From an uncultured Verrucomicrobiota bacterium (lineage in GTDB: Bacteria; Verrucomicrobiota; Verrucomicrobiia; Limisphaerales; UBA9464), in assembly GCA_903842505.1 (NCBI GenBank), contig CAIMMI010000212.1:1-37406 (forward strand): DNA of 37,406 nucleotides, given 5' to 3'. The notes below the pieces were generated by a model. It was given only the letters and a program-made list of their open reading frames with translations, searched no databases and was not told the origin of the DNA. How positions within the stretch are numbered: the first letter of the stretch is position 1; the number at the start of each line of letters is the position of its first letter. Of this stretch, positions 5,991 to 37,406 are shown piece by piece. The translations under genes were made by a program, and so were the position numbers.

Positions 5991-6009
5991 TCGAAAAGAC
6001 TATCGCGCC

Positions 6010-10370: not shown

Positions 10371-10429
10371 CGCGCCCAACATAGCCTCCCCCTCCACCCG
10401 GACATCAACGGCGGATTCGATTTCCCCTC

Positions 10430-10542: not shown

Positions 10543-10608
10543 CTCATCCCGCAGAACGACTCGACGGAGCTCCGCCCCAGCGGCATCGTTCCCATCGCGT
10601 ACTCACCG

Positions 10609-13600: not shown

Positions 13601-13689
13601 GCCAGCGCATCGGAAGCCTTGTCGAGGGCATCGTCACCAGCCCACAATTCCTCCACCGACGGGACCCTGAATTCCCCGCCCACCCGTAA
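10609..13689 (+). CDS. DUF1592/DUF1588/DUF1585 dihaem cytochrome c-domain protein
   Basis: The 1026-residue exported protein starts with a signal peptide (about residues 1-26). A PSCyt1 haem module follows with CLDCH at 47-51, then DUF1587 at about 125-190 (LSNAEYDYTIQDLTGVDL), DUF1595 at about 580-645 (LADFAQRAWRRPLDPTE), DUF1592 at about 680-805 (LANRLSYFLWAGPPD), and DUF1588 at about 825-925. DUF1588 carries a second haem motif, CASCH, at 899-903. DUF1585 is at about 945-1020 (LLAYALGRSL; TSPQFLHRR). About 390 residues between DUF1587 and DUF1595 match nothing I recognise. The architecture is typical of planctomycetes and verrucomicrobia; it is presumed a periplasmic redox protein acting on an unknown, perhaps polymeric, substrate. 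The DUF1552 gene follows after 6 nt. Confidence 0.88.
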   Translation: MSLRIAIPFVLALLLAAACSTSAAAAAPDRLDRSFTTVVRPYLETYCLDCHGSTQPKADFDLSPFTTVARVIADDARWAMVLDQIDAGEMPPKKARQHPTPKESQAVLDWIRELRAREAARHAGDPGPVLARRLSNAEYDYTIQDLTGVDLHPTREFPVDPANRDGFDNSGESLTLSPALLKKYLQAAREVADSLLLTPEGLSFAPHPMLVDTDRDKYSVLRIVDFYRRQPTDLADYFEAAWRFQHRRHLGDRRATRAEIARASRLSPAYLERIWTALTDPQEKVGPIAQLQTQFRALPVPNRGQTNLAHDGAIALRDRVLSLRRKLVPEVGNLSAPGVNPGSQSFVLWKNRQMAANRRRFEPSLLQVDGRVPDNTPVGEGMRAPKPKASKDAKPVLPDPDLFVPSDPAQRAAVEAAFARFCSVFPDAFFISERARVFLEPGADKANVGRLLSAGFHSMTGFFRDDAPLCDLILDDSQRRELDRLWTEFELVAEIHQRMHTSFIWFERTEGRFLMDDEFNFARSEDKDCTSDSKVRQLAELYLAKVQRSGTAEPVLAAIREHFERTSANLRRIDRVRAESEPRQLNALADFAQRAWRRPLDPTERADLLGFYRGLRSRDGLNHEEAVRDCVVSVLMSPHFLYRIDLVDTSTPAPSNKPSRRTIFTPVQSHAPAGTIPLSDHALANRLSYFLWAGPPDAALLARAQARDLHRPDVLVAETRRMLQDDRIRRLAVEFGGHWLDFRRFEEHNAVDRVRFPTFDDTLRKSMFEEPVRFLQYVFRANRPVLDLLNADYTFVNAPLARHYGIPFPLDAPTPWVRVDPTRTSGRGGLLTMSAFLTANSPGLRTSPVKRGYWIARRVLGERIPPPPAAVPELPSDEAHLGELTLRQTLERHRADPSCASCHRRFDSLGLVFEGFGPVGERRTLDLGNHPVDTSATFPDGSTGSGIDGLRTYIAAHRQEDFLDNLCRKLLAYALGRSLILSDEPTIRSLRARLDSNGQRIGSLVEGIVTSPQFLHRRDPEFPAHP

Positions 13690-13695
13690 CCTGCC

Positions 13696-16311: not shown

Positions 16312-16468
16312 GCGAGTCACGATGCTTCCCTCGCAACCCGCGCTTGCACCGTGGGGGGGCTACGGGTATTGAAATGGGGTAGTCGGTCGGTCCCAAACTT
16401 TGGCCGCGGAACCCGCCGCGACCCTTGACTTCACCCCCACCCCTCGAAATAGTCCTCCGCTCGCTTGC

Positions 16469-16488
16469 CGCCCGGCCATGGCCGGGCG
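16469..16488. promoter_or_regulatory. Perfect 20-bp palindrome at the rpoD start site
   Basis: The palindrome CGCCCGGCCA/TGGCCGGGCG has no mismatch and ends 8 nt before the rpoD ATG. As RNA it would form a GC-rich stem exactly where a ribosome binding site should lie; as DNA it could be an operator. It also contains an ATG at 16478, out of frame with rpoD. Confidence 0.6.
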
Positions 16489-16496
16489 CTTCCATT

Positions 16497-18791
<2,295 letters not shown>

Positions 18792-21711: not shown

Positions 21712-23198
21712 CCCTGCGTCACCGGTTGACCCTCCTGGCCCTCGCCTTCACCCCGCTCCTCCACGCCGGCGAAGACCTCGGCGCGATGTGGGGCACCGCC
21801 ACGGAGGAGGCGAAATACTATCCCATCGTCGAGATCCCGATCGCCGCCGGAGTGCCCATGCGACCGGGCAGTTTTGAAAGTCTTCCCGATGGCCGACTCG
21901 CGGTCGGCACCCGACGCGGGGACATCTACTTCATCCGGGGCGCTTTCGATTCGCCCCCGAAACCGGAGTATCACCTGTTCGCCAGCGGTCAGGATGAAAT
22001 CTTCAGCCTGTCCTGGAAGGACGGCGCCATGACCGCCACCACCTGGGGCGAGGTCACCCGCATCTCCGACTCCAACGGCGACGGGATCGCTGACCGGTAC
22101 GATACGCTGTCCAGCAACTGGGGTTACGCCGAGGGACACGAGTTCGCCTTCGGCTCCAAGCACGATCCGAAGGGCAACATCTGGGTCGCGCTGGGTCTCA
22201 GTGGATCCTATGAGTCGCACAATCTGTTCCGGGGTTGGGCGGTCCAGGTGACCCCGCAGGGAAAGATGATCCCCATTTGCAGCGGCCTCCGCAGCCCCGG
22301 CGGTGTCGGTGCCAACGCCGAGGGCGCCATGTTCGTGATCGAGAGCCAGGGTCCCTGGAACGGATGCTGTTCCCTCAAGCATCTCAAGCCGGGCGCCTTC
22401 CTCGGACACCCCGCGAGTTATAACTGGTATCCGTTCGCCCCCGGCCTGAAAGCCCCCGCGCTCGAACCCAATGGCGATTCGCGCATGGGAATCGAAAAGA
22501 AGCGGGTCAAGGAACTCGTGCCACCCGCGGTGAAGTTTCCCTACATCAAGATGGGCCGTTCGATCTCCGGCTTCCGCCTCAACCAGACCGGCGGCCGATT
22601 CGGTCCCTTCGAGAACCAACTGTTCCTGGGCGACTACAGCCTGAGCCTGATCCTGCGGGCCACCACCGAGCAGATCAACGGAGTGTGGCAGGGCGCCTGC
22701 TACCCCTTCCGCGAGGGATTGGCCACGGGGATCATGAACGTCGAGTTCTCGCCCAAGGGCCAACTCATCGCCGGCGGATTCACCACCAGCAGCCAGTGGC
22801 CGGTGCGCGGGAAGGAACCGTTCGCCCTCCAACGCATCGACTGGAATGGCGTCGTCCCCTTCGAGATCCGGGAGATCAACATCCGGAACGATGGCTTCCT
22901 CATCACGTTCACCCAACCCGTCGACAAGGCCGCGGCATCCAATCCGGACGCCTACCGGATCACCACCTATACCCACGTCTATGACGGGGGCTATGGCAGC
23001 CCGGAGGTGGACCAGACGACGGCCCGCGTCACCGGAGCCACCCCTTCCGCCGACGGTCTTTCGGTGAGGCTTTCCCTCGACAAGATCACCGAGGACCACA
23101 TCCACGATTTTGACCTTTCCCGCATCACCTCGCAGGCGGGCAAGCCCCTCCTGCACACCAAGGCCTACTACACCGTCAACGAAATCCCGAGGAACTAG
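21705..23198 (+). CDS. Exported sorbosone-dehydrogenase-like beta-propeller protein
   Basis: The 497-residue product begins with a signal peptide (VTLRHRLTLLALAFTPLLHA). It resembles the glucose/sorbosone dehydrogenase-type propellers common in PVC bacteria (PGSFESLPDGRLAVGTRRGD; ISDSNGDGIADRYDTLSSNW; GLRSPGGVGANAEGAMFV). Such proteins oxidise sugars with PQQ or a related cofactor and pass electrons to cytochromes, which fits the pentahaem gene just upstream. The C-terminal ~110 residues form a beta-sandwich-like segment (FLITFTQPVDKAAASNPDAY). The start at 21705 lies within the end of the preceding gene (7-nt overlap) and is where the signal peptide begins. Catalytic activity is inferred, since many members of this group lack demonstrated substrates. 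Confidence 0.82.
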   Translation: MVTLRHRLTLLALAFTPLLHAGEDLGAMWGTATEEAKYYPIVEIPIAAGVPMRPGSFESLPDGRLAVGTRRGDIYFIRGAFDSPPKPEYHLFASGQDEIFSLSWKDGAMTATTWGEVTRISDSNGDGIADRYDTLSSNWGYAEGHEFAFGSKHDPKGNIWVALGLSGSYESHNLFRGWAVQVTPQGKMIPICSGLRSPGGVGANAEGAMFVIESQGPWNGCCSLKHLKPGAFLGHPASYNWYPFAPGLKAPALEPNGDSRMGIEKKRVKELVPPAVKFPYIKMGRSISGFRLNQTGGRFGPFENQLFLGDYSLSLILRATTEQINGVWQGACYPFREGLATGIMNVEFSPKGQLIAGGFTTSSQWPVRGKEPFALQRIDWNGVVPFEIREINIRNDGFLITFTQPVDKAAASNPDAYRITTYTHVYDGGYGSPEVDQTTARVTGATPSADGLSVRLSLDKITEDHIHDFDLSRITSQAGKPLLHTKAYYTVNEIPRN

Positions 23199-23214
23199 AC
23201 CCTCCCCCCGCACC

Positions 23215-24243
23215 ATGCGCCACACACTCCTCCGCCTGTTCTGCTCCCTCACGATCCTGATCGCCGGCGGCCTCGCCCAGGCTGCGGACAGCCAACCCTG
23301 GCTGACCTATCCCGGAGCCAGCGGACCCGGCAAGGGCAAGCGCATCGTGCTGATCGCCGCCGACCAGGAATATCGGAGCGAACAGTCGATGCCCATGATG
23401 GCAAAGGTCCTCAGCACGCATCACGGCTTCGATTGCACGGTGCTGTTCGCCGTCAACGAGAAGGGAGAGGTCGACCCGACCATGCCGGTCTATCCGGAGA
23501 AGGGTCAGGTGTTCAAGGAGCACCACATTCCCGGCCTGGAACAACTCGCCTCGGCCGACCTCGTCGTCTTCTTTCCCCGCCTGCTGACGCTTCCCATGGC
23601 CGAACGGGAACAGATCGTGAAGTATCTCGATTCCGGCCGTCCCATCCTCTCGATCCGCACCGGGAACCACGGTTTTCACGCCGCCCTGCCCTATAAGATC
23701 AACGGCAAACAGGTCCGCTGGGGCGAGGACATCCTCGGTGGAACCTTCCTGAACCATCACGGCCAATGGCACGCCGATTCCACCCGCGGCATCCTGGTTC
23801 CCGAACAGAAGAACCACCCCATCCTCTCCGGCGTGACCGACATCTGGGGTAACTCGGATGTCTACCGCACCTATAAGGAGGGAACCCGCCTCCCCTCCGA
23901 CTGCACCGCCCTCGTCATGGGCCAACCGCTCCTGGGCCGGAATCACGATGACGCCCCCAACCCCGAACTGGAACCGCTGCCGGTCGCGTGGTTCAAGTAC
24001 TGGCAGACCAGCACTGGAAAGCGCGCCCGCGTCTTTCAATCCACCATGGGCAGCGCCCACGACTTCCAATCCGCCGGTCTGCGCCGCCTCATCGTCAACG
24101 CCACCTACTGGAGCCTCGAAATGGAGTCCGCCATCAACCCGACCCGCAGCGTCGACATCGTAGGCTCCTACCAACCGCTCGAAAGCGGCTTCAACTACAA
24201 GGAACTCGGCGTCGTTCCCAAGCCGATCTCCGCGTACCGATAG
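23215..24243 (+). CDS. ThuA-like domain protein, exported
   Basis: The 342-residue protein has a signal peptide (HTLLRLFCSLTILIAGGLAQA) followed by a ThuA-like fold of the class I glutamine-amidotransferase-like superfamily (KRIVLIAADQEYRSEQSMPM; DLVVFFPRLLTLP; HHGQWHADSTRGILVPE; HPILSGVTDIWGNSDVY). ThuA was described in trehalose utilisation; in PVC genomes these proteins accompany sugar dehydrogenases and cytochromes, as here. It begins 16 nt after the propeller gene, making it the third member of the unit. A carbohydrate-processing role is inferred from family and context. The catalytic residue is not evident to me. Confidence 0.85.
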   Translation: MRHTLLRLFCSLTILIAGGLAQAADSQPWLTYPGASGPGKGKRIVLIAADQEYRSEQSMPMMAKVLSTHHGFDCTVLFAVNEKGEVDPTMPVYPEKGQVFKEHHIPGLEQLASADLVVFFPRLLTLPMAEREQIVKYLDSGRPILSIRTGNHGFHAALPYKINGKQVRWGEDILGGTFLNHHGQWHADSTRGILVPEQKNHPILSGVTDIWGNSDVYRTYKEGTRLPSDCTALVMGQPLLGRNHDDAPNPELEPLPVAWFKYWQTSTGKRARVFQSTMGSAHDFQSAGLRRLIVNATYWSLEMESAINPTRSVDIVGSYQPLESGFNYKELGVVPKPISAYR

Positions 24244-24609: not shown

Positions 24610-25872
24610 CTAGGGAAGCTCCACCACCTGATAAAACCGCTTGGCCGACCGGGATTCATCCGTTGCTTCGGATTGGGTGGAAACCGCCTTCCGTTCGGAC
24701 AACGGGATCCAGGGTGTGCCGAGGTCGTCGCGGGTGAGGAGGCGGTAGGTGCGTCCGGGAATGCTTTCCCAGGAAATGCTCACTCCGCCCTTCGCCGGAC
24801 GCGTCACGCTGAGGGTGAAGGGCAGCTTCACCTCCCGAAGGATCTGGTTGTACGTATCGGACACCACCAGCGAACCCGCCGCCGTGACCACCAATCCGTA
24901 AGGGTTGAAGAGGCGTCCGACCCGGAGGTCGCCATCGGTGCTCCCCTCGCTGCCGGCGAGACCCGCGACGGTCGAAACCGTTCCATCCGGCTTCACCCGG
25001 CGCAGGACATGGTTGGACGAGTCGACCACGTACAGCGAACCCCGCGCATCGAAGGCGAGTCCGGCCGGATTGCAGAAACGCGACCGGTCGGCTGAGCCGT
25101 CCAGACAACCGTCGTCGCCCGCCTTGCCGGCGAACGTCGTCACCGTCCCGTTGGTGGAGAACCGGCGCAGGGTGTGATTTGCGGAGTCGGCGATGAGCAG
25201 GTTGCCCGCGGCATCGAAGGCGAGTCCAACCGGTCCGTTGAACCGGGCGGCGGCAGCCGGGCCGTCTTCCGTACCCCAAACCCCGAGGTCACCGGCGAGG
25301 GTGCTGACGGTGGTATCGGGTGCGATACGACGAATGGCGTGATTGCCGGCGTCGGCCACCACGAGCGAACCATCCCGGGCGAGGGCCAGCCCGAGTGGGG
25401 AATGGAAACGCGCCTCCCCGCCCATCCCGTTCACGGCGCCCGATTCCCCGACCTTTCCGGCGAAGGTGCTGATGCGACCTCCGGGCGCGACCCGGCGAAT
25501 GACGTGATTGCCGGAGTCCGCGACGAAGATCGTGCCATCCGGAGCCACCACCAACGCGGTGGGAGAATCGAAGTGCGCGGCATCCATGCCTGGCTGACCT
25601 GGCTGCCCGGCCAGCGTGATCACGGAACCCTCGAGACCGAGGCGACGCAGGCAGTGGTTGGCGGAGTCGGCAATCAGGAGATTGCCGACCGCGTCCAAAG
25701 CCAATCCGGCTGGATCCGAGAACCGAGCCTGAGCGCCGGGTCCGTCGGCGTGCGCGGCGATTTCAGGGGCACCGGCCAGCGTATGGATGGAACTGCCGGC
25801 AGAGGCAATGGGGGCCGCGGTGAACAGCACCGCAAGGCAGAGCCAACCCCGGGATTTCCGAAGACCGTTCAT
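24610..25872 (-). CDS. Exported NHL-repeat beta-propeller protein
   Basis: The 420-residue protein has a signal peptide (GWLCLAVLFTAAPIASAG) and six NHL repeats at about residues 45-345, each with a pattern like FSDPAGLALDAVGNLLIADS then NHCLRR, enough for one six-bladed propeller. The last ~75 residues (VSISWESIPGRTYRL to KRFYQVVELP) resemble a small beta-sandwich often found at the end of verrucomicrobial exported proteins. NHL propellers bind proteins or ligands; no enzymatic role is evident. The start at 25872 is chosen because the signal peptide begins there; the frame extends upstream to 26055, but that part is repeat copy 2. It lies downstream of the decahaem gene on the same strand, separated exactly by the repeat. 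Confidence 0.86.
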   Translation of the reverse strand: MNGLRKSRGWLCLAVLFTAAPIASAGSSIHTLAGAPEIAAHADGPGAQARFSDPAGLALDAVGNLLIADSANHCLRRLGLEGSVITLAGQPGQPGMDAAHFDSPTALVVAPDGTIFVADSGNHVIRRVAPGGRISTFAGKVGESGAVNGMGGEARFHSPLGLALARDGSLVVADAGNHAIRRIAPDTTVSTLAGDLGVWGTEDGPAAAARFNGPVGLAFDAAGNLLIADSANHTLRRFSTNGTVTTFAGKAGDDGCLDGSADRSRFCNPAGLAFDARGSLYVVDSSNHVLRRVKPDGTVSTVAGLAGSEGSTDGDLRVGRLFNPYGLVVTAAGSLVVSDTYNQILREVKLPFTLSVTRPAKGGVSISWESIPGRTYRLLTRDDLGTPWIPLSERKAVSTQSEATDESRSAKRFYQVVELP

Positions 25873-26054
25873 CCTGAAACCGGCAGTTGGGTTATCCACC
25901 GATTTCACAGATTTCACAGATGGACTGGAACCAGAGGCCCCACCGCTTCGCCGTTTCCATGTCACCCGCAGGGTGAAACGACAGCCTCTCTCAACTGGCT
26001 TCCAATCCGTGGAATCGGTGCAATCTGTGGATCCAACCGCCTTTTCCAGGTTCA
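25869..26054 (-). repeat. 186-bp inverted-arm repeat element, copy 2, filling an intergenic gap
   Basis: Read on the minus strand it starts TGAACCTGGAAAAGGCGG and ends AACTGCCGGTTTCAGGATGAA. The terminal 21 bases match copy 1 at 19 positions. Inner arms GGATCCACAGATTGCACCG and GATTTCACAGATTTCACAG (in opposite sense) can pair imperfectly. The first TGA is the stop codon of the decahaem cytochrome gene, and the ATG within the last seven bases is the NHL start codon, so the element occupies the whole intergenic gap. It could shape mRNA stability between the two genes. Confidence 0.78.
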
Positions 26055-29000
26055 TTCGCGCCCCCTTCGGATCAACCGTTCGCCGGGATACCGGGGCGAT
26101 GGCGCGGGCAATGGCGGTTCCGCCTGAAACTCGCGCGTCGGCTTGAGCTCGATCCCGGCACCCGTCCGCAGCGGACCTGGTCCACCCGCAACGTCACTCA
26201 CGCGGAATTCAGGACCGGTGTTCTTGCCCGTTGCCGCGTCCAGGTGCCGGAACAGCATGCCGAATTCCTCGGCATTGAACGGCCGACTCCCGCGGCGCCC
26301 GAAGACCACCGTCTGACCTCCGCTTTCGTCCACGACCCGGTCCCGGTCCAGGCCCCGGCTGACCGCGATCGCGGGTTTGTCCGTCGGATAGGTGGCGATC
26401 AGCCTGGGGTTGGGGGCGGGACTGAACCCGTGATGATTCGGGACATTCTCGGGCGAGATGAGCTGGATCACCCGCAGACCGTTCCTTCCATCGGCAAGCA
26501 GCCCATACATCGAGGCGGCAATGCTCCCGATCTGGACGGCCCGGGCGTCGTTGATCGCCCCATCGGCGTTGAAATGGCTGAGCAGCTTCGGCTGGGCAGG
26601 ATTGGCAATGTCCACCATCGCCAGCCCACGGGGACCGTCCGGCACATAAAGATACGTCCGCGCGGCGTACAGGCGACCGGCCTGCGCCAGCGGTACGGAT
26701 GCAACCAACCTCGGCTCATAGGGCGAAGACAGGTCGGCCACCTTCACGCCATCGGCATCACTGATGAACGCATAGCGCCATTGCACAGCGATGGCATGCG
26801 GGCGGTTCAGGACGAGCCCCGATGACTCCGCTGTCCCGGATGCGTCCCTCGAAGGCAAGTGTCCCTTGATTTCGGGTTTCGTGGGATCACGGACATCCAC
26901 GACGAACAGGCCGTTCCTGCCGACCAGATACAAATGCCTGGCCCCGGCGAAATAGCCGTGTTCCAGGCCGGTAAGCTGGCCCTCCGGATTGAAGCGCGTG
27001 ACGGGTGGCAAGCCGAGGTAGGGTTCATCCAGGAAGTTGTTCGATGGATTGCCGTCGACCAGCGTCCCGACCAACACGTTGACCAGACCCTCCTCACGAT
27101 CGGTCACATAGACGAAGCCATACGGCAGGCCGCGCGCCTGCTCTTCGTTGTCGCTGTAAAGCTCGCCCAGCTTCGGATGGGTCATGGTCGGCGGATTCGT
27201 TTGCCGCAGCGGATCCACCCCCAGGGTGCTGGGAAGGATCACACTGGTGGCGTACCGGGTCCGGATCCGCGTGCGCTGGCCCAACGGACTGACCGGGGTG
27301 GTCACGATCCGCTCGCTGAAACCCTTGTGGTCAATGTTGGCGACATCGAACACCTCGAAACCGTCCGCGCCATTGGCCGTGTAGAGGTATTCACCGCGCA
27401 GCACCAGGTCGCGGATATCGCGGGCATGGTGATGGTGGGCTTCCTTCAGAACGCCTTGGTTCCGCTCGGTGTGCTCGCGCCAGGCATCGTGGTAGGCGAG
27501 TCGGTGCAGGTGGCTGCCCAGCGCCGCCTGGGGTTCCTCGCGCTCGGTCCAGACCACCGCGTGGATCCCTCCCTCGCCCGAACCCACCCAGGCATGTCGG
27601 CCCAGGAAATTGACGGTGCCCGTCCCGAAGCCCAGCAGCGAAGTCATCCAGGCGTTGTTGCTGTTGTCCTCGGCAAGGTGGCACTCGGTGCAGTTCTTCG
27701 TGGTGCCCACCCCGCTGGTGGTGTGCGGAAAATGGGGGTTGAAGGCCTGCCCGCTATAGCCTTCCGCACTCACCGTCTGCTGCTGCGAATACACCCATTC
27801 CCGGTTGGCATTCTGGGAGCCGACGAGAACGGCGCTCGACGAACGGAGCACTGCCAGTCGGTGGTTCTTGTACGTGGCGTCCTTCCCGAGTTGGAACACA
27901 TCGTCGCGCACCACCTGCGGGTTATAGGTCGTGTAATTGCGGGTCTGGGTCCCCTCGAACTTGTTGGCCGATACCCGCTGGTTGGCACGCATCGGCAGAT
28001 GGCATCCGAAACAGCTCGTGGCCCACGAGGTGTGGCAGATCTGACAGGAAACATTGGAATTCGCGTGCGCCAGTTGGGCCGCGCAGGCCGGGCTGCGATC
28101 CTCACGGAGCGGCTTGCGGTCGTCGGCCAACCAGTACGCCAGGTCGTCGGCCGACTTCTTCACCGGGGAATTCGTCCCCGGCTCGCCGGGCTTCACCTCG
28201 GGGACATCGCCCCATTCCTTGCCGTCACGACGCAGGGTCTTGGCGTAGGCACTCTTCGCGTTGTAACGCGGTGAACGGGGATCCACCGTATCCCGCGTCT
28301 GCGGAATTTCCCACACGCGGTCCGGTGCCAGGGAACTGCGTTGGAAAAGGCGCTTCCCCTCCCAGAAAAAGCGGGGCCCCCAAGGCGTGTTCCCGGTCTT
28401 CAACAGGTCCACCGACTGCGGCTTGCCCGCCTGGGAATCCCAGGACCCACCCGTGCCGCTGGTCATCAGCGTCGGCCGGGAATCGATCGTGCCATGGCAG
28501 TCCACGCACTCGATGGACGTCACGGCGCGTGGATCGCCGTACAGCATGCCGTTGCCGTGCGCATCGTGCAGGAAGTGGCAGTCCACACAATGCATGCCCC
28601 GGGCCAGGTGCACATCCTTGAGATGGACCGCCTTGTCCCACTTATGGGCGTCATCGTGCGGGATGATGCCGTCGGCCAGGTCCAGCAGGTTGCCCTTCTT
28701 GTCGCGCTTGAAGATCGCCCGGAATACCCACCCATGCCCGTGATAGTCGGCAAACTGCGTGTGTTTCAGCTGCGGATTGAGCTCGGCAACCTTGTCGAGG
28801 AAGTCCTTGTCGCTCCACAGGCCCCGCACCGCGGCGCCCTCGGGCGTTTCCAACTGCACGGCGGCGATCTCCTCCTCCGTGGGATGTTTGGCCTCGGTGA
28901 ATTGGGCCCGGGTCTTGCCACCGCGGAAATGCGGGTCATCCGCCAGCGGGTTCCCGGGGTGCGGATACAGGAACTCGCCGTCGGTCTCCTGATCCCACCA

Positions 29001-30239
29001 CGTGTAGCCGAGGAAGGAGTTCACGAAGAGGTTCCCCTGATGCATGTGGCAGTTCATGCACTGCGACGTGGGGATCGCCCGGGTGAACACGTGTCGGATC
29101 GGATGCCCGCGCTCGTTCTTCGGGATCGCCGGATCCCCGCTGAAGCTGAGCCCCTGGTGACCGTACTTGGCGTAGTAGTCGGAGTTCGAAGGCGAACGGT
29201 CGTTGGCGTACACGACATGACACGCCGAGCAACCACTGGAGCGGTAGTCACCCGGATGATTGTTGCTGCCCATGAAGTCGAGCAGCGGGTCGTGCAACCG
29301 GGTCTTCTGCAGATTGAGCCAGACCGGATCGATGCGGGATCGGGTGCCCAGGCCGCGTTCACTCAGGCGACGGGCGGGCTTCCCGGGAGCCTCGAAGGAA
29401 TTGGGCACACCCAACTCCAGCGGCCGCTCCGAGCCCCTCTCAAAGATGCGGAGGATGTTGCTGGGTTGGCCGAGGACAAAGCGCGGCAACGGATCGAGGT
29501 AAGGCAGGACCCCATAGATCCGCGTCATCTCGGGCGTGATCGGTGAGGGCGAATCCAGACGCAGGGGAACGCCATCGAGCCCATAGGCCTGACCGTAGCG
29601 GTAGTTTTTGTCGCGCCACGCGCCGTTGTTATAGAGCGCCGCGCCCCAAAGCATCGCTCCATGCCGCATGATGCTGCTCCGGACATGGGCCACGCTGTCC
29701 CCGTGACAGAGCCCGCAGGTGCGGTCCGCCACACGGAGGTCCCCGGGATTCACGAACTGGATGAACTCGGGAGACTCGTGATTCAGGAGCACCGACGATT
29801 CCACCGGATTGGCGGACGATTCCCAAAAGAGCGGGTTCGACGGTTGAATGTGCGCCTGACGCTGCGTCAGTCCGGACGCCGGATTGCCGCCATGACAATC
29901 GGTGCAACCCAGCACCACGTTCGGCGACGTGTGCATCGAATGCGTATCGGTGCCGCCGTGGCATTCCAGGCAACCACGCGACTTGGCCTTCGCCTCGTCG
30001 TGCGTCTGGTCCACGCGGTTGCGGTCCTTGGTGCGCACGGGGGCCGGGGAGCTCCTCGGCACGGAAATCCGGGGTCCATTCGCTGCCAGGTAGGTTTCGA
30101 GAGGCGAGGCGGCCCGGGCCACGAGGAGGCACTGCAGAAGGACCAGGCGGGTAAGCCAACGGCGAAGGGAGCCGGGCCGGAGTCTCCAGGAAACCCGTAG
30201 GCCAACTCGAAGGTCCGTGGAGGGTGGGAACAGCTTCAT
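26052..30239 (-). CDS. Decahaem c-type cytochrome with LVIVD beta-propeller
   Basis: The 1395-residue protein has a signal segment at about 29-44 (WLTRLVLLQCLLVARAAS). Ten CXXCH haem motifs begin at residues 90, 112, 175, 337, 394, 551, 578, 732, 743 and 850. A His-rich stretch (EAHHHHARD) follows near 930. From there to about 1330 come LVIVD-type propeller repeats (GRNGLFVVDVRDPTKPEIKG; GPRGLAMVDIANPAQPKLL). It should be a secreted electron-transfer protein; the propeller may contact a partner or substrate. The beta-barrel gene ends 3 nt upstream on the same strand, so the two are almost surely co-expressed. Decahaem cytochromes with outer-membrane barrels form electron conduits (MtrAB type), but haem spacing here is much wider than in MtrA. 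The stop codon lies in repeat copy 2. Confidence 0.88.
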   Translation of the reverse strand: MKLFPPSTDLRVGLRVSWRLRPGSLRRWLTRLVLLQCLLVARAASPLETYLAANGPRISVPRSSPAPVRTKDRNRVDQTHDEAKAKSRGCLECHGGTDTHSMHTSPNVVLGCTDCHGGNPASGLTQRQAHIQPSNPLFWESSANPVESSVLLNHESPEFIQFVNPGDLRVADRTCGLCHGDSVAHVRSSIMRHGAMLWGAALYNNGAWRDKNYRYGQAYGLDGVPLRLDSPSPITPEMTRIYGVLPYLDPLPRFVLGQPSNILRIFERGSERPLELGVPNSFEAPGKPARRLSERGLGTRSRIDPVWLNLQKTRLHDPLLDFMGSNNHPGDYRSSGCSACHVVYANDRSPSNSDYYAKYGHQGLSFSGDPAIPKNERGHPIRHVFTRAIPTSQCMNCHMHQGNLFVNSFLGYTWWDQETDGEFLYPHPGNPLADDPHFRGGKTRAQFTEAKHPTEEEIAAVQLETPEGAAVRGLWSDKDFLDKVAELNPQLKHTQFADYHGHGWVFRAIFKRDKKGNLLDLADGIIPHDDAHKWDKAVHLKDVHLARGMHCVDCHFLHDAHGNGMLYGDPRAVTSIECVDCHGTIDSRPTLMTSGTGGSWDSQAGKPQSVDLLKTGNTPWGPRFFWEGKRLFQRSSLAPDRVWEIPQTRDTVDPRSPRYNAKSAYAKTLRRDGKEWGDVPEVKPGEPGTNSPVKKSADDLAYWLADDRKPLREDRSPACAAQLAHANSNVSCQICHTSWATSCFGCHLPMRANQRVSANKFEGTQTRNYTTYNPQVVRDDVFQLGKDATYKNHRLAVLRSSSAVLVGSQNANREWVYSQQQTVSAEGYSGQAFNPHFPHTTSGVGTTKNCTECHLAEDNSNNAWMTSLLGFGTGTVNFLGRHAWVGSGEGGIHAVVWTEREEPQAALGSHLHRLAYHDAWREHTERNQGVLKEAHHHHARDIRDLVLRGEYLYTANGADGFEVFDVANIDHKGFSERIVTTPVSPLGQRTRIRTRYATSVILPSTLGVDPLRQTNPPTMTHPKLGELYSDNEEQARGLPYGFVYVTDREEGLVNVLVGTLVDGNPSNNFLDEPYLGLPPVTRFNPEGQLTGLEHGYFAGARHLYLVGRNGLFVVDVRDPTKPEIKGHLPSRDASGTAESSGLVLNRPHAIAVQWRYAFISDADGVKVADLSSPYEPRLVASVPLAQAGRLYAARTYLYVPDGPRGLAMVDIANPAQPKLLSHFNADGAINDARAVQIGSIAASMYGLLADGRNGLRVIQLISPENVPNHHGFSPAPNPRLIATYPTDKPAIAVSRGLDRDRVVDESGGQTVVFGRRGSRPFNAEEFGMLFRHLDAATGKNTGPEFRVSDVAGGPGPLRTGAGIELKPTREFQAEPPLPAPSPRYPGERLIRRGRE

Positions 30240-30242
30240 GGC

Positions 30243-32666
30243 TCAGTAGGTGAGATTCAGCGCGAGGACACCGCTGTAGAGGAAGGCATCGGGACGGCCC
30301 GCGTGCTCGGACTCCAGGTCGTCAAATCCCGGCACCGGGTCCGTGTTGCGCCGGTAGAGGTCGCGGTAACCACTGCCCGGGATCAGTACTCCGAACCCGG
30401 CACTCAGGATGATGTTGTCCGTCAGGAACGGACGCCATTGCACGCCAACGCTCAGATCCCAACCCAGTTCGCTGCGGATGTTGTCCTGGAGCACCACCGT
30501 CCGGAGCGAATCGGTCTCCGCGAAGCGCAGGTAGTTCACGTTGAAAAAGGAGCGCAGCCTCGGCGTCACGTCCGCGTCGAGTCCCACGCCGTGGATGAGG
30601 ATGCCGGGGTTCACGAAGCTGGCCTGGCCCTGGGTCTTGCTGGTGCGCAGGCTCGGCACCAGGGAATTGGGCTGCTTGAAGCCCACGCCGGTGCCGCCGA
30701 GGTTGAACCCCTGCCGGACGTAATAGCTGAACGGCCCGCCCGTGAAGTTCGGGTTGTCGAGGATCGTGTCAAAGCCACCCCCCGTGCCGTCGTCTGCGTT
30801 CTGGTCGCCGCTGGCATAAAAGAACGACGCCTTGTACCGCAGCCAGTCGCGGTCATAGCTCAACTCCAGCGCGCCCATCTGCGCCTGGATATCCACCGGT
30901 CGGCCCGCCAACTGGTTGAACTCATCCCTGCCGAAAGCCTGATAGAATTGGTGACTGATGTTGAGTCGGCCCATGTGCCCTTCGCCGGCCCAACCGACGT
31001 AGTAAGCCCGGACGTCGTGCGGCCGGACGGTACCCAGGGGCTGCGGCCGAACGATCGCACCAGTGCGATCATAGTGCGTGCCCCCCTCATCGAGGTTGGC
31101 CGCCAGCGACAGCTGTCCGGTGTAGCCCTTCCAGAAAAGGTCCTGCCGGTAAACGTTCGCGAGGAAGACCCGCTGATCCCGCGAATCGAAGGAGTTCAGC
31201 CCGGAAAACGTGTCCTTCTCCCGCAGGTCGAAGCCGAGCAGGTTATACTGCCAATGATTGTTGTCCCAGTTGCCGAACAACCGACCGCCCAGGTTGACGT
31301 CGTTGAAGAGGAAGCCCCGGAAGTCGTGGTTGAACGCCTGGTTGCCGGCCTTCACGGCGACGAAGTCATAGTTCTCGGTGAGGTCGGCTACGTGATACTC
31401 CACGAAGTACTCCTGCAACGCCCAGAACGTCCGCGTGCGCTCCGTGTAGCGGGTGCGGGAATGGGATCCACCCGCCGGGTCCAGTTGACCGTTGAGTAGG
31501 TCGTTGACGTCCCCCGGATTCACCACCCCGCTGTTGTCAGGCGGAGGAGAATTGTCGCCGCCATCGATGCCGCGGGGATCGGGCGCGAGGATCCCGGTCT
31601 CCTGCACCTGCGCATGGTTCACGTTCAGGACGGGGACGACCTTGATCGTCCAGTGCGGCGGCTTGAGCGCGGCTTCACCGGAGAACAACTCCGCCGAGAA
31701 ACCAAGATACTGCTGCACCCCGACCTGTTCGCTGCGGCCAAAAAACTCCGCCGAATCGGTCCGGGCCGAACTGACCCCGCTCGGTGTCGGCACCCGGCGA
31801 AACTCCGCGATGGTGTCACTCGTCGCCGTGAGGTTCAGGAATTTGTCCTGCCCCCAAACGGGAAGGTCTCCCTTGAGCTTCGACTGCTGATAGGGATGCC
31901 AGAGATACGGGGTCGGCCGTTCGAAGGGTTGTTCGCTCAGCCCGGTGGTGTAGCGCTTCCAGGGGGCAAAACCGAAACCGACCTGAAAGCGATCGGGCTG
32001 CGCGGACGCAAAGGGAGGAATGCCTTCACCGCGTTCCGCGAGTGGGTAGTGCGGATTCTCATGGGCCTCGAAGTGCAGCTTCTCGTTCTGGCGCACGTCG
32101 CGCCGGGGCAGAGCCTGCTGCGGGGGCAGCGGCCCCCGTTCGTAGTCGCCATCCTCCGTCCTGCGGGGACGACGCGGCACGAGGGTCTCTTCCACCAGCG
32201 GCCAGCGCGGCAGCCGCAGTTTCCCGTCGATGGGATCCCCCTCATAGGCGGGCGGAGGCGCAGGCTCGTTCGTGAAAAAGGGCTCGGCTGGTGCGGGTTG
32301 GCGGCGCTTGCCGCCCGGGTCGGGGTTGAACTCACTCGCCGTTCTGGGCGGCGAGTTCGTGTTCACGAACCTTCTCCGGCTGAAGATCGGTTCCGAGGGA
32401 ATCTCCCGCCGCGGTCCTACCGGAGCCGCACCGCCATCGACATTGCGTTGGGCGGGGGAGAGCGGCGGCGGGTTGGTGTTGATCGTCTGGCCGTGCTTCA
32501 ACGCGTCCCGGCCCTTCAACTCCACTCCCCGTTCCCTGCGTCCCCCCGGAGCCGATGCCTGCGCTGCCAGACTGACCCCGGCATAGGCAACCAGCAAAAC
32601 GGCCCCCCACGAATACGTCGCGAAAGGCCGCCTCGTGATCACACCGCGTCGGTGGGCGAGGGGCAT
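30243..32666 (-). CDS. Large outer-membrane beta-barrel protein (putative porin)
   Basis: The ~807-residue product has a signal-like segment near its N-terminus (YSWGAVLLVAYAGVSLAAQA), then a Pro/Arg-rich periplasmic-type region to about residue 210. About 600 residues follow of alternating aromatic/polar strands (FWALQEYFVEYHVADL; WQYNLLGFDLREKDTF; AYYVGWAGEGHMGRLN; DWLRYKASFFYASGDQ). It ends in LYSGVLALNLTY, with the C-terminal aromatic residue typical of outer-membrane barrels. The size would allow more than 20 strands. The start at 32666 is preferred over an in-frame ATG at 32729 because the signal lies closer and the longer form would overlap the divergent gene. The decahaem cytochrome starts 3 nt after its stop. 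I do not recognise a specific family; the porin role is inferred. Confidence 0.78.
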   Translation of the reverse strand: MPLAHRRGVITRRPFATYSWGAVLLVAYAGVSLAAQASAPGGRRERGVELKGRDALKHGQTINTNPPPLSPAQRNVDGGAAPVGPRREIPSEPIFSRRRFVNTNSPPRTASEFNPDPGGKRRQPAPAEPFFTNEPAPPPAYEGDPIDGKLRLPRWPLVEETLVPRRPRRTEDGDYERGPLPPQQALPRRDVRQNEKLHFEAHENPHYPLAERGEGIPPFASAQPDRFQVGFGFAPWKRYTTGLSEQPFERPTPYLWHPYQQSKLKGDLPVWGQDKFLNLTATSDTIAEFRRVPTPSGVSSARTDSAEFFGRSEQVGVQQYLGFSAELFSGEAALKPPHWTIKVVPVLNVNHAQVQETGILAPDPRGIDGGDNSPPPDNSGVVNPGDVNDLLNGQLDPAGGSHSRTRYTERTRTFWALQEYFVEYHVADLTENYDFVAVKAGNQAFNHDFRGFLFNDVNLGGRLFGNWDNNHWQYNLLGFDLREKDTFSGLNSFDSRDQRVFLANVYRQDLFWKGYTGQLSLAANLDEGGTHYDRTGAIVRPQPLGTVRPHDVRAYYVGWAGEGHMGRLNISHQFYQAFGRDEFNQLAGRPVDIQAQMGALELSYDRDWLRYKASFFYASGDQNADDGTGGGFDTILDNPNFTGGPFSYYVRQGFNLGGTGVGFKQPNSLVPSLRTSKTQGQASFVNPGILIHGVGLDADVTPRLRSFFNVNYLRFAETDSLRTVVLQDNIRSELGWDLSVGVQWRPFLTDNIILSAGFGVLIPGSGYRDLYRRNTDPVPGFDDLESEHAGRPDAFLYSGVLALNLTY

Positions 32667-32709: not shown

Positions 32710-34392
32710 GTGATTCGGTCCGGACTCATGCTGATCGGCCTTGGCCTGCTCCTGGCGGGTCAGGCCACGGCCGGCCCACCCCTCAGCCTCGGCAACCTCC
32801 AGACCATCGTGGCCCAGGCCGCAAGTCGGGCGCGCGAGTGGACCAACAATCCCATCCACACCAATGCCGTCATCGCCCTCGCCGACCGTGAGGGTTTCGT
32901 GATTGGCGTCTGGACCCTGAACACGAACTTCACGACCGATCCGAAGTTTCCCGCACTCCTCCGGAACGCCATCGGCAAGGCTGGAACCGCGTCGTTTCTC
33001 AGCAGCAGTCAGCATGCGTTCTCCAGCCGCTCGGCCCAGTTCATCGTTCAGCAAAACTTCCCGCCCGGTGTGGTGAACAAGCCCCCGGGTCCGCTCGTGG
33101 GCGTCAACTTCAGCAACTTCCAGTTCAGTGATGTCAACCGCTTCAAGGCTCCCACAGGGTTCATCCCGGGGTTGACGAATGGACTCAACGGCGGCGCCGT
33201 CCCCATCCCCATCACCGGCGGCCTCGCCGGTGCCAGTGGAGGCGTGCCGCTCTACAAGGACGGTCTGTTGGTCGGCGGTCTCGGCGTGGCCGGCGACGAG
33301 GAAACCGACTCCGCAGGAAACCCGCTCCCCCTGCCTCCCCGCGTGGATGCCGCGACGCTGGCCGCGGTGCCGGAACTCGCCATCGCTCCGTCCCTGGTTC
33401 GCCTGCCCGATGTCGATGAAGCCGTCGCCCTCGCCGGCCAGATCGGGTTCGCCCCGGCAACGCGCCTGTTCGGAAGCAAGGTGTTCGTGGATGGCGTCGC
33501 CCTGCCCTACACCGAGACCTCCGCCGAACCGGCGCGGAATCCGCTGCCGTTTGGTTCACCCCTGCTGGGGATCGCCGTCCCCCAGTTTCCATTGGTCGAA
33601 TCGCCCCCGCTCTTCTTCCCGGCGTTCACTCTCGGCGGTGTCACCGGAGAGTTGCGGCAACCGATCCGGGATGACCCCAGGCTTTCCGACACCGACGGCA
33701 GCAACGACGTCATCCAGGGCCAGGCCCGACTCACGGCCATGGAAGTGCGCAGCATCCTCGAACTGGGCGCCAAACGCGCCCGAACCACCCGCGCCGGAAT
33801 CCGTCTCCCACGCGGACGCGCCATGCAGTGCGTCATCACCGTGGTGGCAAATCCCGATCAGGACGGCCAACCCGCCCCGGTGTTGGGGACGTTTTTCACC
33901 TCGCCGGACACAACCCGATTTTCCTGGGATGTCGCCGTGCAGAAGGCGCGCACGGCCCTGTTCTTCTCGGACAACACCCGCGCGTTCAGCACGCGGACCG
34001 TCGGTTTCCTGTCCCAGGAATTCTATCCGCCCGGCATCGCGGGAACGTCGCCGGGACCGTTTCGCGGGCTTCAGGAAAAATTCTCCGCGCTGCCTGCGGG
34101 GCTCACCAACCCGCTGAATGGGGCCACCGTTCCCATCGCGCCCGATGCCGGCACGGTGAACCCCAACCTTCCCAACGGCATCACGATCTTCCCCGGCGGT
34201 TTCCCGCTCTATCGCAACGGCGTGCTCGTCGGGGCCATCGGTGTCTCGGGCGACGGCATTGACCAGGACGACATCGTGGCCGCCAGCGGTTGCCGGGACT
34301 TTCCCGCGCCAAAAGCCATTCGTGCCGACCGCTTCACCTACCGCGGTGCCCGTCTCCCCTACGCCAAGTTCCCCCGCAATCCCGCCCTCTAG
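32710..34392 (+). CDS. Secreted protein with two HbpS/GlcG-like domains
   Basis: The 560-residue protein starts at a GTG preceded by GGAAG with 9-nt spacing, one of the few plausible Shine-Dalgarno sites here; an ATG at 32728 is the alternative. A signal peptide follows (GLMLIGLGLLLAGQATAG). Residues about 30-200 and 340-535 are two related domains of the GlcG/HbpS-like family (PF03928). Each has a FSSRSAQF- or FSTRTVGF-type motif and a GGVPLYKDGLLVGGLGVAGD- or GGFPLYRNGVLVGAIGVSGD-type loop. HbpS of Streptomyces binds haem and iron; here haem or tetrapyrrole binding is only inferred, though it fits the cytochrome-rich surroundings. It is divergent from the barrel gene with 43 bp between the starts, so their promoters must overlap coding ends. 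Confidence 0.82.
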   Translation: MIRSGLMLIGLGLLLAGQATAGPPLSLGNLQTIVAQAASRAREWTNNPIHTNAVIALADREGFVIGVWTLNTNFTTDPKFPALLRNAIGKAGTASFLSSSQHAFSSRSAQFIVQQNFPPGVVNKPPGPLVGVNFSNFQFSDVNRFKAPTGFIPGLTNGLNGGAVPIPITGGLAGASGGVPLYKDGLLVGGLGVAGDEETDSAGNPLPLPPRVDAATLAAVPELAIAPSLVRLPDVDEAVALAGQIGFAPATRLFGSKVFVDGVALPYTETSAEPARNPLPFGSPLLGIAVPQFPLVESPPLFFPAFTLGGVTGELRQPIRDDPRLSDTDGSNDVIQGQARLTAMEVRSILELGAKRARTTRAGIRLPRGRAMQCVITVVANPDQDGQPAPVLGTFFTSPDTTRFSWDVAVQKARTALFFSDNTRAFSTRTVGFLSQEFYPPGIAGTSPGPFRGLQEKFSALPAGLTNPLNGATVPIAPDAGTVNPNLPNGITIFPGGFPLYRNGVLVGAIGVSGDGIDQDDIVAASGCRDFPAPKAIRADRFTYRGARLPYAKFPRNPAL

Positions 34393-34447: not shown

Positions 34448-35563
34448 TTACTTCATCGCCGCGACCAACCGGTCCAACGCATCGGCGAAGGCCGCAGGCG
34501 AAAACTCCGCCGGAACCTGCGCCAACCGGAACAAGGCGGTCAGTTCGGGCTCCAGCTTCTTTTCGAGCGCGCGATCGGACGCGGCGAACAAGCGGTCCAG
34601 CGCCAACACCAATCGATCGGCTCGACAAGACTGCTGGACCTGGCTGGTCACCCCATTCCGGAAATCACCGGCCGTCCGGGCCAACCGGGTACGCAGGGCA
34701 TCGGTATCGGCGGCAGTCCAGGTCTTGCCCGCAGCAGCCCGCGCCAGCTCATCCGGCTGGGCGGCCAGCAAGGGCAATCCGGCCGCCGGTGCTGCGTGGG
34801 CGAGCAACCATCGGACGGCGTCGCGCCGCTCGGACAACCGGTCGTCCTTCGCCCCCGCCGTCTGACCGGAGTGCCATTCCAACTCGCGAAGGGCGACCGC
34901 CTGGCCGACCAACCAGGCCTGCGCACCGGATCGATCGGCGGGCTCACGCCAATGGCGGGGTTCGGCACGCGTCTGTCCATCCAGTTCAAAGCGCAATTCA
35001 GGATGCCCGGCGGCGCGCAAGCCCGCCTCCACCTGCTCGTGACAGGCGACGCAGGTGTTGGCGCGGACATAGAGATCCTCCAGCGGAGCCAGACCCTCGG
35101 CGGCCCGATCGGCGCGGGTGAAGTCCGGACGCGTATGGCTGCGCAGCCACGATTCCGCCGGACCATGACAACTTTCGCACGAGACCCCGACGGTGACATC
35201 CAGGGGAACCACTCGCAGCGCCGGTGCGACCTGCGCAAACGGGGCGTGGCAGACGGTGCAGCGGGCCTCGGTCTCGGGTTTCCCCAGGCCCGCTGCCCGT
35301 GCGATCTGGCCGGATCGCGCCGTGACCAGCGTCGAATAGGCGCGTCGGTGGACGTCGCGTTGTTCCCAGGTGAGGACCTGATCCCGCTTTTCTCCAGCAC
35401 CTCCATGACAGGAGGACGAAGCACAGGAGGAAGCGCCCAGATAACGACTGAGGGGCGACTCCGCCGCCTGCACGGGCATCAGGCCCCAAACACTCGAAAG
35501 CAGCACCAGTGCAGGAGACAGCCATCCGTGGCCGCCGAAATGTTTCGAGGATGGACTTTGCAC
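34448..35563 (-). CDS. Exported tetrahaem c554-like cytochrome
   Basis: The 371-residue protein starts at a GTG at 35563, which gives a good signal peptide (QSPSSKHFGGHGWLSPALVL up to MPVQAAESP); the only ATG, 30 codons further in, would remove it. Haem sites are CASSSCH at 48 (a CX4CH variant), CTVCH at 103, CESCH at 130 and CVACH at 172. The arrangement, including GASSCASSSCHGG and VSCESCHGPAESW, is like the cytochrome c554/c-prime multihaem group. The helical C-terminal half (about 200-371) has no haem site. It would carry electrons in the periplasm. It is divergent from the flavin reductase gene, with 30 bp between the start codons. Confidence 0.8.
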   Translation of the reverse strand: MQSPSSKHFGGHGWLSPALVLLSSVWGLMPVQAAESPLSRYLGASSCASSSCHGGAGEKRDQVLTWEQRDVHRRAYSTLVTARSGQIARAAGLGKPETEARCTVCHAPFAQVAPALRVVPLDVTVGVSCESCHGPAESWLRSHTRPDFTRADRAAEGLAPLEDLYVRANTCVACHEQVEAGLRAAGHPELRFELDGQTRAEPRHWREPADRSGAQAWLVGQAVALRELEWHSGQTAGAKDDRLSERRDAVRWLLAHAAPAAGLPLLAAQPDELARAAAGKTWTAADTDALRTRLARTAGDFRNGVTSQVQQSCRADRLVLALDRLFAASDRALEKKLEPELTALFRLAQVPAEFSPAAFADALDRLVAAMK

Positions 35564-35593: not shown

Positions 35594-36895
35594 ATGCAAT
35601 CCCACCTTCTCGCGGTGCTGGACGGATTCGGGGCCAATCCCGGCCTCATGGTGGGCGCTGCGCTCGTCGCCGCGGTCGGTCTCCAGACGGCCATCGCCGT
35701 GTTCATCGGAGCCCGTCGGCTTCATCACCTGCAGCGTCAGGCCAGACTCGAACAGGACCGTCTCAACCTCACCCTCCGCGCTGCACGCATCCAATCCCAG
35801 ACTGCGGAAGCGGAGAAAGCCTCCTGGAACGGTTGGCGCAAGTTCACGGTCGCGCGGAAGATCCGCGAATGTGAGGACGTGTACTCCTTCGAACTCCAAC
35901 CCCACGACGGCAAGCCGCTGCCCACCTTCAAGCCGGGGCAGTATGTGACCTTCGGCCTGGACCTGCCCGGGCACGGCAAGCAGGTCGTCCGCTGCTATTC
36001 CCTCAGCGACGCACCTCAACGCCGCGACCGCTACCGCGTCACCATCAAGCGCGACGCCAAACCCGGGTATCCGCCCGGGGTGGCCTCCAGCCATTTCTGC
36101 GATCAGGTCCGCGAGAGCGACATCCTCAACGTCAAGGCTCCTGCCGGTCACTTCGCCATCGATACGGAAAAGGAAACGGCGGCGGTGCTGATCAGTGCGG
36201 GCGTTGGCATCACGCCCGTGCTTTCCATGGCCAAGGCCGTCGTGGCGAGCGGTTCGCGGCGCGAAATCTGGTTCTTCTTCGTCTGCCGCAACCGGCACGA
36301 CTTCATGCTCCAGTCCGAGGTCGAGGCCCTCGCCAAGGCGGGCAACATCCGCGTGCAGGTGTGCTTTTCACGCCCCGACCAAGGCGATGTGAAGGGTCGG
36401 GATTATCACCATGAAGGCCGGCTCACCGCGGACCTGGTGAAGTCGTTGCTGCCGTCCTCCAACTACGATTTCTATCTGTGTGGCAACGGAGCCTTCATGG
36501 CCGACCTCTTCTCGGGCTTGACCACCTGGGGAGTGCCGGAATCCAGGATCCACTTCGAGGCGTTCGGTCCCGCCACCATCAAGAAGACCAGCGACACAAC
36601 CTCGCTCCGACGGAAAACCGGCGAGGACTCCCCGGGCCCCCAGTGCTCGGTCACTTTTGCCAAGTCCGGCCGAACGGTGCGGTGGGAACCCGGTGCGACC
36701 AACCTTCTCGAGTTTGCCCTGTCGCACGGCATCCGCATGGACTCGGGCTGCTGTGCAGGCAGCTGCGGCTCCTGCCTCGTGGCCGTGAAGTCGGGTGAGG
36801 TCGTGTACCTCAACCCGCCAGACTCCACCCCCGAGGCCGGGTCGTGCCTCACCTGTATCTGCCGACCCAAGGGCGATCTCATCCTCGACGCCTGA
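35594..36895 (+). CDS. Membrane-anchored FAD/NAD(P)H oxidoreductase with C-terminal [2Fe-2S] ferredoxin domain
   Basis: The 433-residue protein has one N-terminal membrane helix at about 15-37 (LMVGAALVAAVGLQTAIAVF) and a short coiled segment. A ferredoxin-reductase-type FAD domain follows at about 75-180, with RCYSLS near 132. The NAD(P)-binding domain is at about 190-320 (AAVLISAGVGITPVL; FYLCGNGAF). A plant-type ferredoxin domain at about 350-433 has cluster cysteines in GCCAGSCGSC (about 385-394) and one more in GSCLTCIC (about 417). The layout matches the Hcr, VanB and MMO-reductase class: electrons pass from NAD(P)H through FAD to the cluster. The partner is unknown; the neighbouring multihaem gene suggests membrane electron transfer. 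An in-frame ATG at 35540 is a possible earlier start. The next gene overlaps its stop by one base. Confidence 0.87.
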   Translation: MQSHLLAVLDGFGANPGLMVGAALVAAVGLQTAIAVFIGARRLHHLQRQARLEQDRLNLTLRAARIQSQTAEAEKASWNGWRKFTVARKIRECEDVYSFELQPHDGKPLPTFKPGQYVTFGLDLPGHGKQVVRCYSLSDAPQRRDRYRVTIKRDAKPGYPPGVASSHFCDQVRESDILNVKAPAGHFAIDTEKETAAVLISAGVGITPVLSMAKAVVASGSRREIWFFFVCRNRHDFMLQSEVEALAKAGNIRVQVCFSRPDQGDVKGRDYHHEGRLTADLVKSLLPSSNYDFYLCGNGAFMADLFSGLTTWGVPESRIHFEAFGPATIKKTSDTTSLRRKTGEDSPGPQCSVTFAKSGRTVRWEPGATNLLEFALSHGIRMDSGCCAGSCGSCLVAVKSGEVVYLNPPDSTPEAGSCLTCICRPKGDLILDA

Positions 36896-37406
36896 TGCCC
36901 TCCTCAGACACATCGCACCTGCGAATCGATCGGCCAGAACGGGCAGACAACCCCTTCGATCCGGAGTTTCCATCCGACCTGCTCGCACGCCTGCTGACGT
37001 TGTCTCCGTTCCGGGACATGAACCCGGACAACTTCCCCAAACGCCAACCGCTTCAGGCGCTCCTGCGCAATGACACCCGTCTGCGCGCCTTCCGCCGGGG
37101 CGAGATCATCATGCGCGCGGGCGACTACGGTTCGTCCGCCTTCATGGTCATCCGCGGACAGACGCGCGTCGTCCTCAATCCCGCCCTGACGCCCCAGCAG
37201 ATCGGCCGCCGCGAACGCACCGAACGTTCCCTCTGGCGAACGATCGCCCAACTCTGGCGAAACCCGAAGCACCCGGAGGTGCGGAAGCCAACGGAACTGG
37301 TCCTTTCCAGTTCGAAGGCCGACGCAACCGACGCCTCCGCCATCTTCCTCCAGGATGTGCCGCGCATCCTCGACAACCACCAGACGGCAACCATCGGACC
37401 CGGGGA
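36895..37406 (+). CDS. Cyclic-nucleotide-binding-domain protein, N-terminal part (cut by window end)
   Basis: An open frame begins at the ATG overlapping the reductase stop (TGATG) and runs off the window end after about 170 codons. Residues about 58-94 look like the first strands of a cNMP-binding (CRP-type) beta-roll (LRAFRRGEIIMRAGDYGSSA, FMVIRGQTRVVL). The motif that usually follows soon after, QTATIGPG, appears only at about 163, so about 65 residues rich in Arg, Trp and Ser are inserted in the domain. No signal peptide is seen. With its 1-nt overlap it is in an operon with the reductase and may regulate it or work with it. Downstream domains are not visible, so function stays open. Confidence 0.75.
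   Translation, partial: MPSSDTSHLRIDRPERADNPFDPEFPSDLLARLLTLSPFRDMNPDNFPKRQPLQALLRNDTRLRAFRRGEIIMRAGDYGSSAFMVIRGQTRVVLNPALTPQQIGRRERTERSLWRTIAQLWRNPKHPEVRKPTELVLSSSKADATDASAIFLQDVPRILDNHQTATIGPG

Follow-up and report, generated by a model that had tools for sequence, protein, structure and literature searches.

A conserved barrel and decahaem–propeller cytochrome as the candidate outer-membrane end of an electron-transfer pathway in Verrucomicrobiota and other phyla

The window analysed here is a stretch of 37,406 nucleotides from an uncultured member of the Verrucomicrobiota. Two adjacent genes on its minus strand were suggested, in a reading made from the sequence alone, to encode an outer-membrane β-barrel that holds a multihaem cytochrome in the manner of MtrAB. 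The question raised by the locus is whether this pair serves electron transfer at the outer membrane and, if so, whether the haem chain can lie within the barrel. Both reading frames are present, and the particulars given in the sequence-only reading (a barrel protein ending in an aromatic residue, a gap of 3 nt, and a protein of 1395 residues with ten CXXCH motifs and an LVIVD domain) are as found. The features of the pair are:

30246–32666, minus strand: predicted outer-membrane 18-strand β-barrel protein, 807 residues (AlphaFold2 [AF2] model; AlgE match; homologues adjoining the cytochrome)
26052–30239 including the stop, minus strand: decahaem c-type cytochrome fused to a C-terminal LVIVD β-propeller, 1395 residues (ten CXXCH; Pfam)
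27678–29972, minus strand: ten-haem region of the cytochrome, residues 90–854 (CXXCH positions; weak profile similarity to Geobacter ExtM)
27813–27935, minus strand: long conserved β-hairpin, residues ~769–809, between haems 9 and 10 (AF2; alignment)
26388–27596, minus strand: LVIVD β-propeller domain, about residues 882–1284 (Pfam; AF2; Foldseek)

The cytochrome gene starts at the ATG at 30239, 3 nt past the barrel stop and on the same strand, and its G+C content at the three codon positions (0.65/0.48/0.80) is typical of a coding gene. The protein has exactly ten CXXCH motifs, with haem histidines at residues 94, 116, 179, 341, 398, 555, 582, 736, 747 and 854, a spread of ~764 residues that agrees with the ~760 first proposed; in 5000 shuffles of the sequence the mean number of such motifs was 0.011 and the maximum 1. 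The ten motifs are invariant in 56 of 56 homologues, covering all phyla found, and exactly ten histidines outside the motifs (103, 130, 379, 383, 400, 500, 544, 561, 725 and 839) are invariant in the same set. The simplest reading is that the cytochrome carries ten bis-histidine, low-spin haems, which argues for electron transfer rather than catalysis. A role in electron transfer, as had been supposed, appears well supported by the invariant haem sites and extra histidines together with the co-located redox genes described below. The C-terminal domain is recognized by the Pfam LVIVD model (PF08309; E 9.7e-14; 50.9 bits against a gathering score of 20.2). In the AF2 model of a close homologue (L069), the propeller has a pLDDT mostly above 85 from about model residue 745 onwards, and the haem part, which is modelled in the apo form, has values of about 40–85. 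When this whole model was compared using Foldseek the match list was filled by propellers, and a sequence search of solved structures gave only short, CXXCH-driven matches that are little informative. The hairpin between haems 9 and 10 corresponds to strands 634–651 and 660–674 of the same model, predicted with modest confidence; it includes residues invariant in the alignment and is a possible contact element. The suggestion that the propeller acts as a surface or partner domain is a guess. Nothing relevant on LVIVD domains with multihaem cytochromes was found in open-licence papers, and large surveys may include the family without a name (PMC11475568). Two terminal features should be noted. 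A conserved R(L/I)xRRG motif closes the verrucomicrobial cytochromes of the window's order (26055–26080 in the window); sequences of other phyla lack it. In genomes labelled Prosthecobacter/Chthoniobacteraceae, the cytochromes of four loci (L105, L106, L120 and L129) differ at the N-terminus, which is hydrophobic and may be an uncleaved anchor.

The cytochrome is present in 12 of the 50 genomes of the window's family and in 42 of the 196 genomes of its order, the latter count leaving out three (G114, G174 and G213) with propeller-only matches. A wider scan gave at least 578 confirmed relatives; the best 80 of these, which were kept, are about 44–74% identical, mostly full length and mostly from Verrucomicrobiota. 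Other record titles among the listed relatives name Deltaproteobacteria/Desulfobacterota, Nitrospirae and Nitrospira, Blastocatellia/Acidobacteria, Binatia, Ignavibacteriae and Chlorobi, Planctomycetales, KSB1 and Zixibacteria. By these titles, which belong mostly to metagenome-assembled genomes and are possibly wrong, the cassette would span about nine phyla, namely Verrucomicrobiota and about eight others, with full-length cytochromes of about 45–77% identity. A barrel profile places the barrel beside the cytochrome at almost all loci that extend far enough to include it. Outside the Verrucomicrobiota it does so directly in 16 of 18 loci; in one of the remaining two (L150) it lies ~4.9 kb off, and the other (L149) begins too near a contig end to tell. 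Among the 196 genomes of the order, both genes occur in 41, the cytochrome only in one, where it sits at a contig edge, the barrel only in none and neither in 154, giving a Fisher value of 1e-41. Shared ancestry exaggerates this value, but the two genes are scattered patchily through many genera and families, and some genomes carry them unlinked. The unlinked cases are the four verrucomicrobial loci with the unusual N-terminus, at which the cytochrome has no adjoining barrel; each of their genomes carries one barrel gene elsewhere. Accidental adjacency of the barrel can be rejected because the two distributions match and because the genomes in which the genes are unlinked keep both. Co-occurrence beyond the window's own genome had been put forward at the outset as a check on the pair, and both the order and the other phyla bear it out. 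Conservation and functional coupling of barrel and cytochrome, both within the Verrucomicrobiota and well outside that phylum, are supported.

The barrel gene ends with a stop codon at 30243–30245 and starts either at the ATG at 32666 or at an alternative ATG at 32729, which would give 828 residues; the C-terminus is ...GVLALNLTY. AF2 predicts 18 long strands over residues ~265–807 (pLDDT ~95), and the N-terminal ~230 residues of the mature protein form a proline-rich linker, of low confidence in the model and without strands. There was no family match among Pfam and NCBIfam models. Among solved structures, the AF2 model matches the alginate exporter AlgE best (Z 28.2, 356 residues aligned, 2.7 Å), followed by OccK/OprD porins, and an 18-strand porin fold of the AlgE/OprD type is predicted. 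MtrB is absent among the structural matches listed, an absence that is given no weight as evidence. Long connectors come after odd-numbered strands of the model, so that the long loops should face outward; one of them, a long conserved connector at model residues ~585–656, may partly occupy the lumen. Conservation is higher at inward-facing than at outward-facing positions (0.72 versus 0.56), which fits an occupied or functional lumen but is also usual in solute porins.

It could be that the barrel is a true porin, admitting an oxyanion, organic compound, metal chelate or similar soluble oxidant or reductant to a decahaem–LVIVD protein that works as a periplasmic oxidoreductase, with no electrons crossing the outer membrane. 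The classical 18-strand porin/exporter fold with its long outer loops is in keeping with this, as is the weak haem-motif similarity of the cytochrome to nitrite reductases; yet with exactly ten further invariant histidines there is no haem that obviously lacks a distal ligand, unlike the case of a catalytic multihaem reductase, and a catalytic motif was not identified in the protein. The haem domain also has weak but collinear similarity to the profile of ExtM (2.5e-26 for the Zixibacteria protein, L148), which is encoded in the Geobacter selenite/tellurite cluster extHIJKLMNOPQS together with the porin-like ExtI, and one proposal for ExtI is a selenite/tellurite channel (PMC5877670) much like that envisaged here. 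The ExtM model (NF040943) gives 52.6 bits for the window protein and 92.2 bits for L148 against a cut-off of 800, and ExtM has 12 haems in ~600 residues without a propeller (PMC5877670), whereas the present protein has ten haems and a propeller. Some homologues (L138 and L142) look like lipoproteins in a lipobox check, which also speaks against this explanation. We consider a porin feeding a periplasmic enzyme unlikely, though it is the strongest of the alternatives.

The arrangement first proposed, a wire of ten haems running through the barrel like MtrA inside MtrB, does not agree with the model, which is of AlgE/OprD type and appears too narrow for the haem domain. By formula, the ideal radius is 16.5–17 Å for 18 strands compared with 23.5 Å for 26, and a bulky haem region of ~764 residues cannot fit inside a barrel of ~16–17 Å radius; the envelope of MtrA alone is ~25 × 50 Å in section (PMC5971433). 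The adjacency of the two genes and the conserved lining of the lumen would suit threading. So would the strand number, since Geobacter-type porin–cytochrome (Pcc) porins are predicted to have 18–22 strands (PMC4245776), and by itself it still allows a complex with a small inserted lobe; however, the connector at ~585–656 may already take up part of the lumen. Partial insertion of a haem-bearing lobe may occur, and threading of the whole chain seems most improbable.

The genes around the pair are as follows:

24610–26055, minus strand: NHL-repeat propeller protein (Pfam NHL, 3.8e-36), overlapping the cytochrome gene by 4 nt
32710–34392, plus strand: two-domain HbpS/GlcG-like exported protein, divergent from the barrel gene (PF03928)
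34448–35509, minus strand: tetrahaem cytochrome c554-like protein, three CXXCH and one CXXXCH, start provisional (PF13435, 2.4e-8)
35594–36895, plus strand: FAD/NAD(P)/2Fe-2S ferredoxin-reductase-like protein, 434 residues (FAD_binding_6, NAD_binding_1, Fer2)
36895–37406, plus strand: first part of a cNMP-binding/4Fe-4S protein (reading frame; cNMP and Fer4 domains of homologue)

The NHL-repeat gene is the conserved next gene downstream of the cytochrome in most of the order. The HbpS-like gene (58.5 bits with PF03928 against a gathering score of 25; 107.8 bits for the L148 homologue) adjoins the cassette in most loci, being divergent in Verrucomicrobiota and mostly co-directional elsewhere, and its products in several other phyla are lipoprotein-like in the lipobox check. 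The window protein ends ...YAKFPRNPAL, and a tail ...PYxKFPRNP is nearly invariant across phyla, as if it were a C-terminal binding or sorting element. Nothing relevant on HbpS with multihaem cytochromes was found in open-licence papers. The tetrahaem gene is a frequent neighbour in other cassette loci. The reductase-like protein has an N-terminal hydrophobic helix, and the same gene is found in IMCC26134; its stop codon is overlapped by the ATG of the cNMP/4Fe-4S gene, which runs off the window. Positions 36994–37406 overlap positions 5643–6055 of another contig of the same assembly (G000:C28) over 413 nt at 99.3% identity, with three mismatches, and the two contigs are therefore probably adjacent and were split by the assembler. 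C28 carries the rest of the cNMP/4Fe-4S gene, a membrane protein and a second decahaem cytochrome. In the Zixibacteria locus (L148), the order is HbpS, barrel, decahaem–LVIVD, c554-like, cNMP/4Fe-4S, membrane protein and second decahaem, followed by an FHA gene and an FAD/NAD oxidoreductase with FHA and 2Fe-2S domains. In IMCC26134, it is c554-like, FAD/NAD/2Fe-2S reductase, cNMP/4Fe-4S, membrane protein, second decahaem, barrel and decahaem–LVIVD. The redox gene cluster is also seen in KSB1 and Chlorobi loci. The second decahaem is found in 39 of the 42 cytochrome genomes of the order, often on a different contig, and at full length in none of the 154 others, short N-terminal-only matches (G084, G096, G129, G157 and G215) being left out. 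The membrane protein has no family match in Pfam; conserved histidines in its hydrophobic segments, read by eye, suggest that it may bind b-haem. A literature search for the combination of cNMP, FHA and decahaem proteins gave nothing relevant in open-licence papers. The conservation across phyla of the HbpS-like neighbour, whose family PF03928 is called ‘haem degrading’, might make the cassette one for the uptake, storage or sensing of haem or iron, centred on the HbpS-like protein and with the cytochrome storing haem or sensing redox state. Electron flow is indicated, however, by the conserved genes for the reductase, the Fe-S protein, the membrane protein and the second decahaem, and the covalent haem sites are invariant; there is very little to recommend this explanation.

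How the system stands to known conduits can be considered on this basis. Like Pcc (OmbB-OmaB-OmcB) and MtrCAB/MtoAB/PioAB, the cluster has adjacent genes for a barrel and a multihaem c-type cytochrome, with genes for periplasmic and inner-membrane cytochromes there or close by. Pcc systems are recognized by a porin of 18–22 predicted strands adjoining a cytochrome of 5–14 haems (PMC4245776), and here there are 18 predicted strands, ten haems and adjacency in nearly all loci. Unlike either type, the present cytochrome has 1395 residues, haems spread over ~764 residues, a propeller and a conserved HbpS-like partner, and the scans run gave no match to curated families of Pcc or MtrCAB/MtoAB/PioAB. 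MtrB has been described with 28 predicted strands, the periplasmic loops being the longer ones (PMC5971433), and the MtrAB/MtoAB/PioAB barrels in general have 26–28 strands with long periplasmic loops, whereas the present model has its long side outside the cell. The decahaem–LVIVD proteins do not match TIGR03508 (the MtrA/DmsE-family decahaem), which the second decahaem of L148 matches weakly (30.6 bits against a cut-off of 192.2). The system is thus similar to porin–cytochrome conduits in general outline and fails the MtrAB and ExtM features that were tested.

Within the same phylum, a putative octahaem porin–multihaem cytochrome system has been described in bog Verrucomicrobia and suggested to serve extracellular electron transfer; that study names IMCC26134 among the genomes that have it (He et al. 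2017; PMC5615132). It too combines a porin with a multihaem cytochrome, and IMCC26134 also carries the present cassette, but the cytochrome described there has eight haem sites and the present one ten. IMCC26134 has a separate locus (2588422–2593267) encoding a hexahaem protein of 498 residues, a protein of 269 residues with seven CXXCH and a barrel-like protein of 763 residues, which fits that description and has no match to the present barrel and cytochrome profiles. Identity of the present pair with the system of He et al. can be rejected because of this separate, profile-unrelated octahaem-type locus. The Uet pathway (UetABCDEGHIJ; PMC10734462) likewise encodes a barrel porin, multihaem cytochromes and NHL-repeat proteins together; its cytochromes are an undecahaem and a trihaem/tetrahaem set, and no propeller fusion is described for it (PMC10734462).

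Other observations in the genome and window concern separate loci. Reading frames of 690–747 residues with eight CXXCH lie around 8894 of contig G000:C186 in the window's genome (L166) and around 65696 of G008:C62 in a relative (L164), and are perhaps a second multihaem system. The window itself holds, at 8586–15051 and 19012–24243, Planctomycete-type cytochrome/DUF clusters (PSD1/PSCyt2; PSD3/PSD4/PSCyt3; HXXSHH), followed by genes for a PA14 cytochrome carrying several CXXCH motifs, a DUF7133 protein and a ThuA-like protein. At 16425–18791 it encodes an RpoD-type sigma factor in which a long N-terminal stretch of low complexity, made up of Ala, Lys and Pro, precedes region 1.1.

Our preferred reading, which we think somewhat probable, makes the pair the outer-membrane terminus of a trans-envelope electron-transfer pathway that is conserved and has not been described before. 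NAD(P)H or ferredoxin would be linked, via the FAD/2Fe-2S reductase and the cNMP-binding 4Fe-4S protein, to the b-cytochrome-like membrane protein and a membrane-anchored decahaem; the periplasm would be crossed via the tetrahaem c554-like cytochrome; and the outer-membrane module would consist of the barrel, the decahaem–LVIVD cytochrome and the HbpS-like protein. The barrel would be an anchor or gate that docks or exports the cytochrome, or admits a small haem-bearing lobe, and this is more likely than that it encloses the haem chain entire. We infer in this scheme the complex of the three outer-membrane proteins, the sequence of carriers, the passage of electrons between modules, the crossing of the outer membrane and the location of the cytochrome. 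Against the trans-envelope reading is the narrow 18-strand barrel of the model, which leaves the route of electrons across the membrane unexplained. An apparent cbb3-type oxidase gene near the IMCC26134 cluster (judged by eye, from the start of the sequence) makes inward flow to oxygen as possible as outward flow. We hold only tentatively the fuller proposal, in which the complete pathway occurs in about nine phyla and has an outer-membrane module of new design, connected to a cytoplasmic NAD(P)H/Fe-S module, in which an 18-strand AlgE-type barrel docks or exports the decahaem–propeller cytochrome along with the HbpS-like protein, without sheathing the haems.

If the trans-envelope reading is true, many bacteria of soil, freshwater and groundwater, hitherto without known extracellular electron transfer, would carry a ready-made electron path between their metabolism and the outer membrane, and the barrel would be of a type not previously found linked to multihaem cytochromes. 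The combination of decahaem–LVIVD cytochrome and barrel offers a specific sequence marker for surveys, and IMCC26134, a complete genome with the cassette, is a possible test organism. The reading would also separate two easily confused porin–cytochrome systems of the Verrucomicrobiota.
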